Of a stretch of DNA of 64,000 nucleotides, positions 52,867 to 62,917 are shown piece after piece (within the stretch, counting starts at the first letter, position 1; each line of letters opens with the position of its first letter). Under the pieces are notes generated by a model, which had not been told where the DNA came from, did not search any database, and was given only the letters and a program-made list of their open reading frames with translations. The stretch covers positions 62,001-126,000 of the forward strand of contig PGXO01000001.1 of the NCBI GenBank assembly GCA_002839185.1, in the 5' to 3' direction. The position numbers were made by a program, and so were the translations under genes. The DNA comes from Synergistetes bacterium HGW-Synergistetes-1. Its GTDB lineage: Bacteria > Synergistota > Synergistia > Synergistales > Synergistaceae.

Positions 52867-53706
52867 ATGGAACGAAAAATTAAAAATATGGCAACAGGAT
52901 TCAGAACTCGGGACGGAGCCGGAGTAGACCTTGTCAGAGTTTTGGGACACGATACCGTAGAAGAATTCGACCCGATCCTTATGCTTGATTCATTTGACAG
53001 CACTGATCCCGATCAATATACAGCGGGGTTCCCCATGCATCCGCACAGGGGAATAGAGACTATAACTTATGTCTATCGTGGACAGATCACCCACAGGGAC
53101 AGCTTGGGTAATGAAGATACTATCGCCCAGGGAGAGGTCCAATGGATGACAGCAGGATCCGGAATTTTGCATGAGGAAAAACTGCCTGCATCCGAGAGAT
53201 TGCTTGGAGTCCAGTTGTGGCTTAATATGCCGGCAAAAAACAAAATGTCAGCTCCCGCATACAACAGTATCAAGAATTCTCAAATTCAAGAAATTATGTT
53301 GGATAATGGAAATTTAAGACTTCTTGCAGGTGAATATGAGGACACAAAAGGGTACGCAAGCAAATATCTCCCGTTGGACTTTTATGATCTGCATCTTGAT
53401 ACCAATGCCTCAGATGTAATAAATACTGATAGGGAACGTTCCGTAATGATATTTACACTTTCAGGGAATGCGTACATAGGGGGAGAACTTGTCAGGGAAA
53501 AGACGGCAGTAAAACTTACACCCGGCGACTATGTTGAGATAATGGCAACAGATAAAAATGCCCAGGTCCTGTTTGTCAGTTCGACATTCCTGAATGAACC
53601 TGTTGCCTGGGGAGGACCAATAGTAATGAACACTAAGGAAGAATTGAGCAAAGCATTTGAGGAATTGAAAAATGGAACTTTTTTGCAAAAGGTCATCTCC
53701 TATTAA
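52867..53706 (+). CDS. Pirin family protein
   Basis: A 279-residue bicupin of the pirin family. The N-terminal metal-binding cupin shows PMHPHRGIETITYVYRGQI then HRDSLGNEDTIAQGEVQWM and GILHEEKLP, giving the usual His/His/His/Glu set. The C-terminal half ends with an oxidised-quercetin-type fold region. Some pirins are quercetinases; others bind regulators. The start is ATG 52867 with AAGGGTGG upstream, not the GTG at 52855. It is next to prxU, with a terminator between them. Confidence 0.9.
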   Translation: MERKIKNMATGFRTRDGAGVDLVRVLGHDTVEEFDPILMLDSFDSTDPDQYTAGFPMHPHRGIETITYVYRGQITHRDSLGNEDTIAQGEVQWMTAGSGILHEEKLPASERLLGVQLWLNMPAKNKMSAPAYNSIKNSQIQEIMLDNGNLRLLAGEYEDTKGYASKYLPLDFYDLHLDTNASDVINTDRERSVMIFTLSGNAYIGGELVREKTAVKLTPGDYVEIMATDKNAQVLFVSSTFLNEPVAWGGPIVMNTKEELSKAFEELKNGTFLQKVISY

Positions 53707-54796: not shown

Positions 54797-55216
54797 ATGG
54801 CACAAAAAATACCATCGGAGTGTGAGCTAAAGTCATTGATAGGAGCAAATAGGTTCAAGGCTTGGACTGAGCTGTGTACCATGATCGATACGCGGTATGA
54901 AATGGACCGAACGTGGGGCAGCGGAGGAAAGGCATGGCATTATGAGTACAAATACCGCCGCGGGGGAAAGACCCTTTGTGCTCTATATGCAAAGCCTGAC
55001 GTCAGCGCTCTGATGATGATCTTCGGAAAAGAGGAAAGAGATAAGATCGAAGCCGGGAAGGAAAATTTTTCGAAGAGAGTCATGCAGGTCTATGACGACG
55101 CAAAGACTTATCATGACGGCAAATGGGTCATGTTTGAATTTGAGGACTCATCGATCTTTGAAGATCTGCTGAAACTCTTGGGAATCAAGAGGAAACCGAA
55201 CAGGAAGTTGACATGA
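54797..55216 (+). CDS. DUF3788 family protein
   Basis: A 139-residue soluble protein: EMDRTWGSGGKAWHYEYKYR, GGKTLCALYAKPDVSALMMIFG, then EDSSIFEDLLKLLGIKRKP. This matches DUF3788, a family common in anaerobes without known activity. The ATG at 54797 follows a GGTGGCC stretch. It lies between two decayed sequences. Confidence 0.85.
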   Translation: MAQKIPSECELKSLIGANRFKAWTELCTMIDTRYEMDRTWGSGGKAWHYEYKYRRGGKTLCALYAKPDVSALMMIFGKEERDKIEAGKENFSKRVMQVYDDAKTYHDGKWVMFEFEDSSIFEDLLKLLGIKRKPNRKLT

Positions 55217-55326
55217 ACTTAATCAGGACCAGCCTTATAGGAAGAAAAATTAGGATCTTGAAAATGAGTACAAAGCTATGGGTCTGTTTTTGAATTTTCA
55301 CACCGCAGTAACAGTGGCAAATTGTA

Positions 55327-55462
55327 CGAAAAATTTTTCCTTATCCCGCATGAACTATTGTCGGAATGGTCGAATTTCCTCTTGGCGCTTCGATAGAAAT
55401 AGAATTATCGGCAAGAAAAGATACAGCACGGTAACATTACCCTGTACGTTTACACTAGATCA
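55327..55462 (+). pseudogene. Decayed copy of the ridA-VOC junction
   Basis: Positions 55361-55434 encode VGMVEFPLGASIEIELSARK then DTAR and a stop, closely like the end of RidA at 54071-54144. The TAACAT junction and the following VOC start are also echoed but carry indels and a stop. It is a 3' fragment of a former second ridA-VOC copy. Confidence 0.75.
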
Positions 55463-55517
55463 ACAAAAGTCAATCTAAGGCATACAGAAGATCTTGACCG
55501 AGACTGATTATTAGATT

Positions 55518-55536
55518 TATAATATGACTCAAGTCA
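55518..55536 (+). promoter_or_regulatory. TetR promoter with operator
   Basis: TATAAT (55518-55523) is followed directly by the palindrome TGACTCAAGTCA (55525-55536), placing the operator over the transcription start for autorepression. Confidence 0.65.
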
Positions 55537-55546
55537 AATAATTGGA

Positions 55547-56173
55547 GTGTATAATATGGCCCGACCGCCACAAGATCCACAAATTAGAATAAATGAGATT
55601 TTAGATGCTGCAGAGGCACTGTTTTATGAGCGTGGTTATCAGCCTACGCTGATAAGTGATATCGTAAAAAAAATCGGGGTGGCTCAAGGCACATTCTATT
55701 ACTATTTTTCTTCCAAGGAAGAACTTGTTGAGGCTCTCATCAATAGACATTTATCGAAATTTCGGACAGCTATTGATGCGGTAGCAAACTCTACAGTCAT
55801 TTCTCTGCCTCGAAAAATCGAGTTAATGGCAAATATTTTGCCTGCTACAATTCAGGGAAAACAAGGATTATTATTGGAATTCCTTTACAATGATCAATAT
55901 CTTCATCTTATGGATAAAGTATTTCGACAGGCAAAAAAATTACTTGCTCCATATTTATTAAGTGTTATTAAAGAAGGACAAAGAAAGCAAATTTTCTCCG
56001 TCCCTCATCCCAAAGCCGTTTCTAACTCAATCATGTCCATTATTCAATGCTATGTTGAAGCCATATATGAAAAAGAGGCGGCTGATATTTTAGAATACCA
56101 AAAAAAGTTTGCAAAGCGGCTTATTGAAAATGCACTGGGATTGCCCGAAGGGGAGTTACATATACCGGTGTAG
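55547..56173 (+). CDS. TetR family regulator
   Basis: A 208-residue repressor. The HTH is NEILDAAEALFYERGYQPTL then ISDIVKKIGVAQGTFYYYFS, with the usual KEELVEAL following. The C-terminal ligand domain is family-divergent. The palindrome TGACT-N2-AGTCA lies in its own promoter and again before the next gene, so the probable regulon is visible. The start could also be the ATG two codons downstream (55556). It is 126 nt ahead of the glycosyltransferase fusion. The ligand is unknown. Confidence 0.9.
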   Translation: MYNMARPPQDPQIRINEILDAAEALFYERGYQPTLISDIVKKIGVAQGTFYYYFSSKEELVEALINRHLSKFRTAIDAVANSTVISLPRKIELMANILPATIQGKQGLLLEFLYNDQYLHLMDKVFRQAKKLLAPYLLSVIKEGQRKQIFSVPHPKAVSNSIMSIIQCYVEAIYEKEAADILEYQKKFAKRLIENALGLPEGELHIPV

Positions 56174-56229
56174 TTCGACGAGATCATATTAAGCTCAACA
56201 ATGTATGAGCATCTTTTAATCTAATTAAT

Positions 56230-56241
56230 TGACTTGAGTCA
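56230..56241 (+). promoter_or_regulatory. TetR operator before the glycosyltransferase fusion
   Basis: TGACTTGAGTCA is the reverse complement of the palindrome in the TetR promoter. It overlaps TTGACT (56229-56234), a -35-like box, so binding would block transcription. Confidence 0.65.
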
Positions 56242-56299
56242 AAATAATCAAACCATTCATAACTTTAAAAAATTTTTTTACATCAGAAGGAATAAAAAT

Positions 56300-58765
56300 A
56301 TGAAAATTATTATATTCTACTCTTCAATTGGACAGGGACACATTAGCGCCGCTTGTTCGATCGAGAAAGAAATTCTAAAAAAGGATCCTTGCGCCATAAT
56401 TTTGCAAAAAGATATTCGTGAATTTATGGACCCGATAGCAAGAATGCTTAATGAAAAACTTTATTGGTTTGTCGCCCAGAACTTACCTTATTTGTTTGAT
56501 AATTTGTTTCAGTCCATGCAAAAACGGGGAAAGTGTGTAGGTTCAATAACTTGCTTGCCAAGCGAATATTCAGAACAAAGAGTGCATGAATACCTTTTAG
56601 AGGAAGCCCCTGATGCTGTTTTTGCAACACACTACGGTGCAGCCCAAGTACTGGGCAATTTAAGAGAAAAAGCCCTGATGCCAAACATCAAGATCGGTTG
56701 GCTTCATACCGATTATTTTGTCGGGTACTTTCCCCGTATATCCAAAATGATCGATCGAACTTTTTTAGCGCATCCTGCACTAAAAACAAGCTGGCTGGAA
56801 TCAGGCGTGTTCTCTGATTTGGTTGAGACTTCCGGCATGCCGGTAAATGTTAAAGACACTGATTCAGATGTTTCAAAAGAATGCTTAAGCAAAATTGGAT
56901 TTCAAACATCAATCAAAACAATTGTGCTTGCCAGCGGAAAGGAGGGAATAGGAGATTTTCCTGGAATTATCATAAGCTTGGCTAATGCAACAGAGCAACC
57001 GCTGCAAATTATAGCTGTTTGTGGCCGTAATAAAAAACAATTCGAAGCATTGCACCAAATTGAGCAACAGATGCCTAAACATGTTAAATTGGAAATCATG
57101 GGATTTATCCCGCAGGCTGACTTGGTTTCGTTCGTTAGTGCATCTGACTTGTTTATAACCAAGGCAGGAGGGTTAGCTCCGTCAGAAGCTTTTGTATTGG
57201 GGAAACCAACGATATTATTGAGTGTGATCAGCGGGCACGAAAAAGAAAATGCAGAATTCTTCGCGAGACTCGGGCTAGCTGAAATAAATTCTGCAGTGGA
57301 GGAAATTGGCAGCCAGACACAATTACTTCTTAAGGATGCGGCAAAACAGACTTCCATGCTGAAAGCACAGCGAGTATTCCGAGAAAACATGAATATTAGT
57401 AAGATAGCGGATTTCCTTCTAAATCCGAAAATTGTGCCGCGGAGCTTAAGTCCGAAATTTGGTTTGGAAAATGGAGATTCAGCACGCAACATTGGAAGTG
57501 CGCTGGCACAGTTGGAAAACGACGTGCCTGTTGATTTGGAAATCTTGCTTTCCTACTCTTCGTCAAAAGAAAATGAGCACATTGCCACGGAAAACCCATT
57601 TGGGCATATTGCAATTCGGATCGGTGATACCGTATATAGCTCCAACCATCATGCAGATCGGGCAAAAGAAACACTTTTGCTCCAGCATATGAACGTGAAG
57701 AATTATTTATTCGGTGTTTATCCTGCATCGGGCAATCAAGAACATACAAGTACATATGGGATGGCATATGGCCGCGATACTTTGGGATTACGTGTTAAAG
57801 GAGTTCCCCGGGAAGCTATTCAAAGGATGGATGCAGAGGCGGCAAAGATTGAGGAAGAATTCAGCATGGGAGAGTGTAAGTATGATGCAAAAAAATCAAA
57901 TTGTGCGGATTATGCTGAAAGAATTCTGGAGGCAAGTGGATATTATGTGGGACAACTTCATGAGTTAAACTTTTTTTATACTATGCCGCTGGATGTTTTT
58001 GAAAAAGCACGTGAAACTTTTCAAGCTGTTCCCGGTTTCTGCACCGAATTGGTAGCATATAGACGATTGACAAGTTCTCAATCACCTTACCGCTTCTCGC
58101 GGTTTCCACTTTCCCTGGGCCAGCCTGTAAGGTCATTTGCGCATATTATAAACAATAATGCGATCGATCGTCTTGAATCAGAAGTTAAGGCACAACTGAC
58201 CGGATATTATGGCGATGACCGTATTTTTTTTGAAGAACTGAGCCCCAGCTGGAGGAGTGTGGCGCTTAATAATTTTAATCGTCCGCAAAGACGAACAATG
58301 AAAGTCGGAAACGTTCTTGTTTTAGAAGCTCGTCGATTGTTCAAGCAAAAGAAAATCTTTTATATTATAAATTATAAAAAAATAAGGGAGCAACAGGTTA
58401 AGCGTGAAGCTAGCCATTTGCTTAACAATTGCTATGATACGGTCAGAATAACGCTTGAGCATGTGGAAAGAATACTCGGTGCCGCGAATACTAAAAAACA
58501 GCGCGCGGCATTTGTAAGGCTTACACGGGAATATGGTGAATCTAGTCGCTGGAAACATGCACCCGCTGAGGTAACTAATTTCATTAAAAAAATATCTGAG
58601 TTTTATCAAATTCTCGAGCAAGACTGTCAAGATAGAGACTTGAAAAATCTAATTCTTGAGATAAAGACGATATCAAGGAACCTGGAAAATCGTGTAAAAC
58701 GTTTATTTGGGATTGATTCTAGTGATTTGTCAGTAAAAAGTTCCAAGAATCAACTGAAGCGATAA
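56300..58765 (+). CDS. MGDG-synthase-like glycosyltransferase fused to permuted NlpC/P60-like domain
   Basis: An 821-residue protein. The N-terminal GT28-type half (about 1-385) begins MKIIIFYSSIGQGHISAACS, as in monogalactosyldiacylglycerol synthases. It has TKAGGLAPSEAFVLGKPTIL as donor-site loop and IGWLHTDYFVGYFP. The C-terminal half has NPFGHIAIRIGDTVYSSNHH then KSNCADYAERILEASGY. This His-before-Cys order fits circularly permuted NlpC/P60 (LRAT/YiiX-like) enzymes. A third, helical C-terminal part has no recognised domain. A lipid glycosylation plus acyl or amide chemistry role is inferred. ATG 56300 has GAAGGA upstream. Confidence 0.75.
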   Translation: MKIIIFYSSIGQGHISAACSIEKEILKKDPCAIILQKDIREFMDPIARMLNEKLYWFVAQNLPYLFDNLFQSMQKRGKCVGSITCLPSEYSEQRVHEYLLEEAPDAVFATHYGAAQVLGNLREKALMPNIKIGWLHTDYFVGYFPRISKMIDRTFLAHPALKTSWLESGVFSDLVETSGMPVNVKDTDSDVSKECLSKIGFQTSIKTIVLASGKEGIGDFPGIIISLANATEQPLQIIAVCGRNKKQFEALHQIEQQMPKHVKLEIMGFIPQADLVSFVSASDLFITKAGGLAPSEAFVLGKPTILLSVISGHEKENAEFFARLGLAEINSAVEEIGSQTQLLLKDAAKQTSMLKAQRVFRENMNISKIADFLLNPKIVPRSLSPKFGLENGDSARNIGSALAQLENDVPVDLEILLSYSSSKENEHIATENPFGHIAIRIGDTVYSSNHHADRAKETLLLQHMNVKNYLFGVYPASGNQEHTSTYGMAYGRDTLGLRVKGVPREAIQRMDAEAAKIEEEFSMGECKYDAKKSNCADYAERILEASGYYVGQLHELNFFYTMPLDVFEKARETFQAVPGFCTELVAYRRLTSSQSPYRFSRFPLSLGQPVRSFAHIINNNAIDRLESEVKAQLTGYYGDDRIFFEELSPSWRSVALNNFNRPQRRTMKVGNVLVLEARRLFKQKKIFYIINYKKIREQQVKREASHLLNNCYDTVRITLEHVERILGAANTKKQRAAFVRLTREYGESSRWKHAPAEVTNFIKKISEFYQILEQDCQDRDLKNLILEIKTISRNLENRVKRLFGIDSSDLSVKSSKNQLKR

Positions 58766-59302
58766 GTCTAGATTGTGGATTGGCTGGCATTGCCGGAAGA
58801 GAAACATGTTACAGAATTTTACATGTACTTTCTTGTATTTTTGGAATGCCTGTCTCATAAGAAATCGAACTCCTTTCTGCTGGAGTCTTTGGTAAATCAC
58901 AGAAACTTAAGCTTCACAAGGCGATCTTGCCGCCGGCATAAGGTTACTATTAGAAGATAAAATATTTTATATCAGATCAATTCGAGGTCTTATAATTCAT
59001 CAAAGCAAGGCGGGGACAGTCTACAGTACTTAAATAGTTTATCAGTACAGACTTGCTTGCAAAACATTACTTTTCTTTCTCTTTATACCCAAAAGTGCTG
59101 TACAACTCTCATTTAATGTGATAATCTTTGCAAATTTTAAGGGGCAATAATTTATGCACCCCAAAAATTTATATTTTTGGAGCGCATTTCATCCTCTCTT
59201 AGTCATCATGCATGAAGAGGATAAACTTTGTACGAAGACGATAAAAGACAGCCAATAATTTATCAGTTGCCTTATTTGCATAGGAAAGTGAGGTTAAGAT
59301 CG
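58766..59302. other. 537-bp intergenic region before dapA
   Basis: No gene seen. GGGGCA...TGCACCCC near 59141-59162 and TCCTCT/AGAGGA near 59193-59220 are short hairpins. An extended -10 TGTGATAAT (59118-59126) may start dapA transcription. No lysine riboswitch pattern is recognised. Confidence 0.45.
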
Positions 59303-60193
59303 ATGTCAAAGAAAATAATTTTCACCGGGATCGCTACGGCGCTTATTACGCCTTTTAAAGGACAGGGGATTGACTTCGATAAATTTGGCCGTCTGATCGA
59401 CTGGCAGATAGAAGAAGGCATCGACGCCCTTTTAGTATGTGGCACAACAGGAGAATGCTCAACAATGTCGGATCAGGAGCATAGGAGTGTCATTGAGTTT
59501 GCTGTCGACCGTGTCAACGGCAGGGTGCCTCTGATAGCAGGGTCCGGAAGCAACGATACAGCCTATGCCATTTCACTGACTCACTTTGCCGGCGAGGTCG
59601 GAGCTGACGCATCCCTTTCGGTGACCCCTTATTACAACAAGACAACACAGAAGGGGATTGTCCGTCACTTCAGCGCAATTGCTGACGCAAGCTCCATTCC
59701 TCTCATTGTTTACAACGTACCATCAAGGACCGGAACCGCGATCGAACCGGAGACATATGCTGAGCTTGCTAAACATGAGCGTATCGTTGCAATAAAGGAA
59801 GCAAACAGCAATATAGACAAGATCGTAGATACAATGTCCAGGCTAAAAGGCGGGCTGACACTCTATTCCGGAAATGACGGAGAGATAGTGCCTCTGATGG
59901 CAGTTGGAGCAATGGGCTGCATATCTGTCCTTTCCAATATCCTTCCGGCACAGACGGGGGAGATATGCAAGAAGTTCTTTGCCGGTGACATAAAGGGAGC
60001 CGCAGCCCTACAGTTCCGTTACCGGCCTCTCATAGACGCGATCTTCAGCGAAGTCAACCCTATACCTGTCAAGGCAGCTATGACGGCTATGGGATTCTGC
60101 GAACCTGATATCCGCATGCCTCTTACGGAAATGGACGAGGTCAAGTTCAATAGAATGATAGATCTCATGAGAGCAGAGGGGATATCAGCATGA
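59303..60193 (+). CDS. dapA: 4-Hydroxy-tetrahydrodipicolinate synthase
   Basis: A 296-residue TIM-barrel aldolase that condenses pyruvate with aspartate semialdehyde. Seen: GTTGECSTMSDQEH, the catalytic Tyr region VYNVPSRTG and the Schiff-base Lys in VAIKEANSNI (about residue 163). ATG 59303 is used because the frame from 59228 adds residues unlike the family and AGGTTAAG precedes it. It overlaps dapB (ATGA). Confidence 0.95.
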   Translation: MSKKIIFTGIATALITPFKGQGIDFDKFGRLIDWQIEEGIDALLVCGTTGECSTMSDQEHRSVIEFAVDRVNGRVPLIAGSGSNDTAYAISLTHFAGEVGADASLSVTPYYNKTTQKGIVRHFSAIADASSIPLIVYNVPSRTGTAIEPETYAELAKHERIVAIKEANSNIDKIVDTMSRLKGGLTLYSGNDGEIVPLMAVGAMGCISVLSNILPAQTGEICKKFFAGDIKGAAALQFRYRPLIDAIFSEVNPIPVKAAMTAMGFCEPDIRMPLTEMDEVKFNRMIDLMRAEGISA

Positions 60194-60933
60194 TGAGGGT
60201 AATTGTAAACGGATCAAACGGAAGGATGGGCAGCGAGATCGTGTCCATGATACAAAAAGAGTCTGCAGACCTTGACGCCACACTTGCGGCGGCAGTTGAT
60301 GTAACAGGAAGCTGCCAGGGCGTTTTCTCCTCATTGGCAGAATACACCGGCCCTGCAGACGTTATTATTGATTTTACATTTCACACGACTGCTGAAGCAT
60401 TGACTGAATATGCCATCACCCGCTGTTTGCCACTGGTCATAGCAACGACCGGACACACGCAGGAAGAGCTTGCAGTTATCCGAAAAGCTGCATTAAAGAT
60501 CCCATTGTTCCAGACATCCAACATGTCCATCGGCGTGGCGATGCTGGTTGAATTTGCAAAAAAAGCGGCAAGTGTTTTTCCTAAAGCAGATATTGAGATA
60601 GTCGAAAAACATCACAACCGCAAGAAGGATGCCCCCAGCGGCACGGCCATGACAATCGCCGACGCGCTCACATCCGTCAGACCCGGTGCTGTCATCAAAT
60701 GCGGCCGCAGCGGCTTTGAGACGAGAAACCCTGACGATATAACCATACACTCTCTGCGTATGGGTGATATCGTCGGAGATCATGAAGTCTACATAACCAC
60801 AGATTCACAACAGCTTGTTTTAAGACACGAGGCATTCAGCCGTACTCTCTTTGCAGAGGGAGCTATCTGCGCAGCAAAGTTCCTGCAGGGAAAACCTGCA
60901 GGATATTACAGAATGGAGGACATGATAAGATGA
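60190..60933 (+). CDS. dapB: 4-Hydroxy-tetrahydrodipicolinate reductase
   Basis: A 247-residue reductase. The nucleotide loop is VNGSNGRMGSEIV, the active-site His region is EKHHNRKKDAPSGTA, and EAFSRTLFAEGAI is near the end. It reduces the DapA product with NAD(P)H. It overlaps both dapA and ddh by 4 nt, so the three enzymes are made together. Confidence 0.96.
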   Translation: MMRVIVNGSNGRMGSEIVSMIQKESADLDATLAAAVDVTGSCQGVFSSLAEYTGPADVIIDFTFHTTAEALTEYAITRCLPLVIATTGHTQEELAVIRKAALKIPLFQTSNMSIGVAMLVEFAKKAASVFPKADIEIVEKHHNRKKDAPSGTAMTIADALTSVRPGAVIKCGRSGFETRNPDDITIHSLRMGDIVGDHEVYITTDSQQLVLRHEAFSRTLFAEGAICAAKFLQGKPAGYYRMEDMIR

Positions 60934-62149: not shown

Positions 62150-62797
62150 ATGAATATAATTGCCTTCAATGGAAGCCCCAGAAAGAGCTGGAACACCGCC
62201 ACGCTTTTAAACAAAGCCCTCGAGGGCGCGACTTCTGCGGGAGCAGAGACCGAACTGATCCATCTTTATGACTTGATCATCAGAGAAGAAAGAAAAGATG
62301 ACTACCTGAGCGTCTATAGAGTCGTAAAGGCTGCATTCGGAGGCACGGAGTACACAAGCGGAGATGAACAGGATCTCGTGGTCAGACTCAGAGGCAGCAG
62401 CTCTTTTTTACCGGAACTCTCCATTGTTGCTGAGTTTAACGGAGAGACCATAGGACACATAATGTTCACAGAGGCTGTGATCAGAGAAGGTGATAAAAAT
62501 CATCAGACTTTGACCCTCGGCCCCGTCTCAGTATTGCCTGAATATCAGAAAAAGGGCATAGGAAGCAGGCTGATAGAGGAGGGGCATGATGCGGCCCGAC
62601 GCCTTGGATACAGATCAGCCCTGCTTGTCGGCCATCCGGAATATTATCCCCGTTTCGGATACAGGCCAGCTGAAGTTTTTGGGATCAAGACCTACCTTGA
62701 ACTCCCTTCTCGTGTCTTCATGGCTTGTGAACTGATCAAGAACGGCCTTGAAGGTGTCTCAGGAACAGTCAATTTTGCCCCTGAATTCAACCTGTGA
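62150..62797 (+). CDS. Chimeric protein: FMN-reductase start fused to GNAT acetyltransferase
   Basis: A 215-residue protein. Residues 1-40 (IIAFNGSPRKSWNTATLLNK, then SAGAETELIHLYDLI) closely match the beginning of FMN-reductase proteins such as the one at 50916, including the flavin loop. At about residue 41 it switches to a full GNAT acetyltransferase (EERKDDYLSVYRVVKAAFGG, then GPVSVLPEYQKKGIGSRLIE). The rest of the flavin protein is missing, so an in-frame deletion is likely. The GNAT half looks complete. GGGGGG precedes the ATG. Function of the flavin loop here is doubtful. Confidence 0.8.
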   Translation: MNIIAFNGSPRKSWNTATLLNKALEGATSAGAETELIHLYDLIIREERKDDYLSVYRVVKAAFGGTEYTSGDEQDLVVRLRGSSSFLPELSIVAEFNGETIGHIMFTEAVIREGDKNHQTLTLGPVSVLPEYQKKGIGSRLIEEGHDAARRLGYRSALLVGHPEYYPRFGYRPAEVFGIKTYLELPSRVFMACELIKNGLEGVSGTVNFAPEFNL

Positions 62798-62917
62798 CCT
62801 CTCTTTTATATTTTTCCTTTTTCTTTCCTCAGAGGCGTGACATTGTCACAGACGTAAAACACCCTTGATGAAATAATGCGTCATAAGAAGTAATTTATCA
62901 AAGGGGGAAATTTATAA

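Follow-up and report, generated by a model that had tools for sequence, protein, structure and literature searches.

A predicted bifunctional lipid enzyme uniting a GT28 glycosyltransferase with an Lnb-like His-Cys domain in Synergistetes and on Polaromonas plasmids

The window, a 64,000-nucleotide stretch of a Synergistetes genome, carries an open reading frame that runs from an ATG at 56300 to a stop at 58765 without internal stop codons (Table 1); a TTG 66 bases 5' of this ATG is an alternative start. The encoded protein begins with a GT28/MGDG-synthase-type glycosyltransferase, continues with a domain (approximately residues 388-600) in which a His motif precedes a Cys motif, and ends in a basic, probably helical, poorly conserved tail. 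The initial annotation had placed both motif-bearing halves in one polypeptide, as the frame bears out. Each half is of a known enzyme kind, and their fusion is a new combination. Upstream of the adjoining TetR-family regulator gene, a promoter-like TTGACC-18-TATAAT element lies at 55494-55523, a consensus match only.

Table 1. Positions of the fused gene, its predicted parts, and the adjacent regulator in the window
Feature	Coordinates	Strand	Basis
TetR-family regulator directly upstream of fused gene	55547..56173	+	PF00440, E 3e-19; synteny
Whole fused protein, 821 aa	56300..58765	+	Open frame and full-length homologues
GT28/MGDG-synthase-type glycosyltransferase domain, residues 1-380	56300..57439	+	Pfam, NCBIfam, PDB, residue conservation
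His-then-Cys domain, residues 388-600, DUF4105/Lnb_N-like (permuted NlpC/P60 class)	57461..58099	+	Profile comparison, homologue alignment
Predicted catalytic His436 (FGHIAIR)	57605..57607	+	Invariant in 7 sequences; aligned to FGHTAxR His of DUF4105
Predicted nucleophile Cys535 (NCAD)	57902..57904	+	Invariant in 7 sequences; aligned to NC of DUF4105
Conserved YRFSRFPLSLGQP linker region, residues 588-640	58061..58219	+	Six sequences agree in 21 of 53 columns
Basic, probably helical C-terminal tail, residues 641-821	58220..58762	+	Variable, 3 invariant columns; composition

The N-terminal half is matched by two Pfam models above their curated cut-offs, PF06925 (MGDG_synth; E 7e-9, 36.4 bits, cut-off 25) and PF04101 (E 8e-8, 32.9 bits, cut-off 22), and by solved UgtP-type and MGD1 chains (PDB 9wde and 4wyi; E 9e-18 and 2e-14), to which its C-terminal motifs align. 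The NCBIfam model for diglucosyl-diacylglycerol synthase also matches (E 2e-36), at 125 bits and so far under its 500-bit equivalog cut-off. This half retains G-x-GH with H14, D138, TKAGG, E296, and GHEKEN. The GxGH, KAGG, E, and GxExxN residues, which we take to be the nucleotide-sugar and catalytic motif residues of GT28/MGDG-synthase-type enzymes, are invariant across all homologues covering them. Its initial description as a glycolipid-type, MGDG-synthase-like glycosyltransferase therefore stands. The likeness to UgtP and MGDG synthase comprises both Pfam domains and the conserved motif residues; however, the fused half is only ~22-28% identical to the GT28 proteins compared and forms a separate, long-branched clade, and UgtP and MGD1 lack the ~440-residue C-terminal extension of the fused protein.

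Beyond residue 380, a Pfam search matched no model and a PDB sequence search gave nothing above chance; weak PDB matches to designed proteins, covering the strand-helix part only, were taken as chance. The two motifs that had drawn attention to this region are present, FGHIAIRIGD at residues 434-443 and NCADYA at residues 534-539, in the His-before-Cys order of the permuted NlpC/P60 superfamily. H436 and N534-C535-A536 are kept in all seven aligned sequences (six fused and one stand-alone homologue from Cupriavidus); the fused six also share D537 and H482, which the Cupriavidus homologue lacks. AlphaFold models, built from the window sequence with or without one near-identical sequence, were of low confidence (pLDDT 41 and 35), and in both a helix starts at N534-C535. 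Such models, and the lack of any member with demonstrated activity, would fit a middle domain that has lost catalysis and serves as a lipid-binding or regulatory module, or one that is a peptidase or amidase acting on a protein. We regard this as quite unlikely, as H436 and NCA stay unchanged between the window's phylum and Betaproteobacteria, and also in the stand-alone homologue (33% identity); conservation over such a distance suggests that catalysis has been kept.

To place the middle domain among permuted NlpC/P60 clades, we searched plasmid records for DUF4105, LRAT, and YiiX proteins, with self-made probe sequences as the starting point for DUF4105 and LRAT; membership was confirmed by Pfam for two of the DUF4105 proteins (PF13387, Lnb_N) and for one LRAT protein. 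Against DUF4105, hhalign gave a score of 38.5 (E 2.2e-4) with the His and Cys in register, which none of 150 column shuffles of the query reached (mean 14.8, standard deviation 2.65, maximum 25.4). A second DUF4105 alignment, of six of the same proteins and overlapping the first, gave E 3.2e-4. The hhalign probability of this match, from shallow alignments, was just 39-45%, and the score fell to 21.9 when FGHIAIR was masked, so this motif provides a large part of the signal. LRAT (PF04970) and YiiX/C92 scored 17.6 and 18.8, within the shuffled range (values that 11 and 5 of the 150 shuffles reached), and were excluded as the nearest clade. The second domain is thus still best read as permuted NlpC/P60 type, now through its DUF4105 match, and the LRAT/YiiX likeness proposed in the initial annotation is not upheld. 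An hmmscan search with hits accepted up to E 10 matched PF13387 itself to neither the middle domain nor its relatives, and a search of the window's genome with this model also gave no match; viral contigs scanned with two DUF4105 proteins to deepen the alignment yielded no relative. Overall, the profile comparison supports a predicted placement nearest to DUF4105/Lnb_N, the Lnb clade of these enzymes.

Lnb of Bacteroides (DUF4105, PF13387) shares with the fused protein the order and register of the FGHxAxR and NC motifs (profile match E 2e-4). Unlike Lnb, the fused protein has no PF13387 hmmscan match, no signal peptide, and no Lnb membrane domain (PF25221), and it has a GT28 fusion. The His-before-Cys order is also common to Tox-Act1, TseH, LRAT, and YiiX, members of a superfamily of lipid acyl enzymes; the profile comparison, which left out Tox-Act1 and TseH, found no significant match to the LRAT and YiiX sets. 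In the permuted NlpC/P60 tree, DUF4105, which is the Bacteroides lipoprotein N-acyltransferase Lnb, is sister to Tox-Act1, a phospholipase that needs its His and Cys and has phosphatidylglycerol and phosphatidylethanolamine as substrates (PMC12994826). Recognition of the Lnb acyltransferase is recent, dating from 2024 according to work cited in PMC12994826. With a phospholipase as sister clade, and with a patatin acyl hydrolase encoded directly after the fused gene in Polaromonas (see below), the middle domain might be a phospholipase or deacylase that provides the glycosyltransferase with its lipid acceptor or trims this acceptor, without acyl transfer to the sugar product. This seems unlikely to us, as DUF4105 itself is the acyltransferase and a free phospholipase in the cytoplasm would presumably endanger the cell.

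The stretch after the His-Cys domain is, as first noted, unassigned: it is basic (42 K+R against 25 D+E in residues 601-821), probably helical, poorly conserved, and without a Pfam model. A Pfam match of the tail to herpesvirus UL17 (E 0.02-0.15), well below cut-off, was taken as chance. The frame of the fused gene in a genome of the same genus (G001) ends early, within the tail. No hydrophobic segment of the window protein exceeds 1.35 (19-residue Kyte-Doolittle mean), and the Lnb-type periplasmic layout of signal peptide and membrane domain is not matched. Near its N-terminus the Polaromonas copy, unlike the window protein, carries a single hydrophobic helix that peaks at residue 15; RQRSRAR comes next, and under the positive-inside rule this order would leave both halves of the enzyme cytoplasmic. 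Lnb and Tox-Act1 work in the periplasm. The GT28 partner implies a cytoplasmic location, unlike that of these two enzymes, and this counts against the explanation we favor.

The C-terminal half is present in 3 of 188 genomes of the window's phylum: its own, G001 (81% identical), and a member of another family, G051 (53-54%). Another copy, 97% identical, is carried by a contig of a metagenome-assembled genome (MAG) labelled Oscillospiraceae (L022, JAGPMA010000077.1); this contig is probably misbinned. Among 398 sampled genomes of that MAG's group, the matches were the MAG itself and one weak match to the tail region. The contig is 5.9 kb long and 95% identical to window 54895-60797, and the MAG sits in a larger, different group. 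A tblastn search of plasmids found full-length 42% homologues on conjugative plasmids of Polaromonas naphthalenivorans CJ2 and Polaromonas sp. JS666 (WP_007182749.1 and WP_011486383.1), identical in layout over the full architecture and annotated as UDP-GlcNAc--LPS transferase only. Full-length homologues thus have 97, 81, 53, 42, and 42% identity. Because the same architecture occurs on plasmids of two Polaromonas strains, the fusion is real; an assembly artefact was ruled out, as several genomes in two phyla carry it. Two Cupriavidus megaplasmids encode the middle domain as a stand-alone protein with a signal-peptide-like, hydrophobic start (1.98 at residue 5). Phage genomes searched with the C-terminal half alone gave no match, and viral contigs scanned with an alignment of this half contained no relative.

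In a tree that also includes 18 GT28 proteins from the window's phylum, five fused glycosyltransferase halves form one group (support 100/100), split from those 18 by a long branch. Compared with Polaromonas, the glycosyltransferase half is 50% identical, the middle domain 47%, and the tail 18%; near-equal conservation of both halves, in one fused clade, is as expected if the halves work together. Third-position GC (GC3) is 0.31 in the window TetR gene and 0.36 in the fused gene, against 0.42-0.56 in the other genes measured. In G051 the fused gene adjoins a tyrosine integrase gene (L053:5809-7008; assigned by reading its sequence), and in another genome, G007, the dap-operon flank is present and the TetR-glycosyltransferase block is unmatched within the 6 kb examined. 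Together, the single clade, low GC3, integrase neighbour, and flank without the block point to horizontal acquisition of the fused gene.

The TetR gene is kept beside the fused gene in G001 and on L022. The window and Polaromonas TetR proteins are 27% identical, mainly around the DNA-binding part, and TetR was rejected as a conserved partner across phyla. Two further differences were seen near the locus. G001 (L054) has a 106-base remnant of a pirin-like gene (window 53415-53520) between the fused gene and dapA. An open reading frame at window 62150-62797 looks chimeric, a flavoprotein-like start of ~42 residues leading into a GNAT acetyltransferase (names by sequence reading); in G001 its first 129 bases alone match, and the alignment resumes at 62866.

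On the Polaromonas plasmids the fused gene is sixth in an apparent operon, after genes for TetR, a hypothetical protein, DUF883, DUF6781, and UbiB, and before those for patatin, a polyprenyl synthetase, and an RND pump; the window gene lacks this cluster. Three consecutive genes there (L025:6832-8867) are phasin-like, DUF883/apolipoprotein-like, and DUF6781, the phasin and apolipoprotein matches being weak. The DUF6781-UbiB pair recurs on alphaproteobacterial plasmids (L056, L057, L058), and in Rhodobacter sp. CZR27 it adjoins four dynamin-family genes; no fused gene is annotated in these alphaproteobacterial stretches. UbiB was looked for in the window's genome and is absent, so the Polaromonas partners are not obligatory. 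The grouping of polyprenyl synthetase, UbiB, and RND efflux genes in one Polaromonas cluster could mean that the acceptor is a polyprenyl or other hydrophobic compound in a tailoring and export pathway, the product leaving through the Polaromonas RND pump. We think this improbable: no such partner adjoins the fused gene in the window, and the glycosyltransferase half is most like diacylglycerol glycosyltransferases.

The explanation we favor, at a probability of about 0.5, is a membrane-associated enzyme with two activities, located at the cytoplasmic face, that would glycosylate a lipid and, by way of an acyl-cysteine intermediate, move or remove an acyl chain. The GT28 half would use a nucleotide-sugar to glycosylate a lipid acceptor, for example diacylglycerol. 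The middle half, DUF4105/Lnb-like, would work as a thiol acyltransferase or as an acyl hydrolase: H436 would activate C535, and C535 would be loaded, as a thioester, with an acyl chain taken from a phospholipid or glycolipid. This chain would then pass to the sugar product (or to water), yielding an acylated or remodelled glycolipid, and the basic helical tail probably anchors the protein to the membrane. The domain content, the conserved residues, and the one fused clade across phyla are observations; from them we infer the circularly permuted papain-like fold, the activity, the substrate, and the direction of acyl transfer.

Several lines of evidence support such a two-step lipid enzyme: the GT28 family matches with key residues retained, the DUF4105/Lnb_N match with His and Cys in register, and the lipid-related Polaromonas neighbours (patatin, UbiB, and polyprenyl synthetase). 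The acyl chemistry is supported by permuted NlpC/P60 enzymes (Lnb, LRAT, and Tox-Act1), which act on lipid acyl groups. Against it stand the low-pLDDT models, a DUF4105 score leaning on FGHIAIR with a modest hhalign probability, and Polaromonas neighbours that do not travel with the fused gene (a 27% identical TetR, no UbiB). We conclude that the gene encodes a genuine fusion, a predicted double enzyme, and that the fused protein probably builds a modified membrane lipid. The open-licence literature searched held no union of these two halves and no characterised example, in agreement with the initial annotation.

A bolder version, which we hold only tentatively, is a self-contained two-step glycolipid synthase, spread between phyla by mobile DNA, whose cytoplasmic Lnb-type half would acylate its own sugar lipid to give an undescribed lipid class. 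To our knowledge, all Lnb-type chemistry described to date takes place outside the cytoplasm, on lipoproteins or, in the case of the related Tox-Act1, on phospholipids. A fusion to a glycolipid glycosyltransferase would extend this chemistry to glycolipids and to the cytoplasmic side of the membrane. The lipid product may be sought in named strains through the Polaromonas cluster, where the annotation of the gene goes no further than a generic LPS glycosyltransferase.
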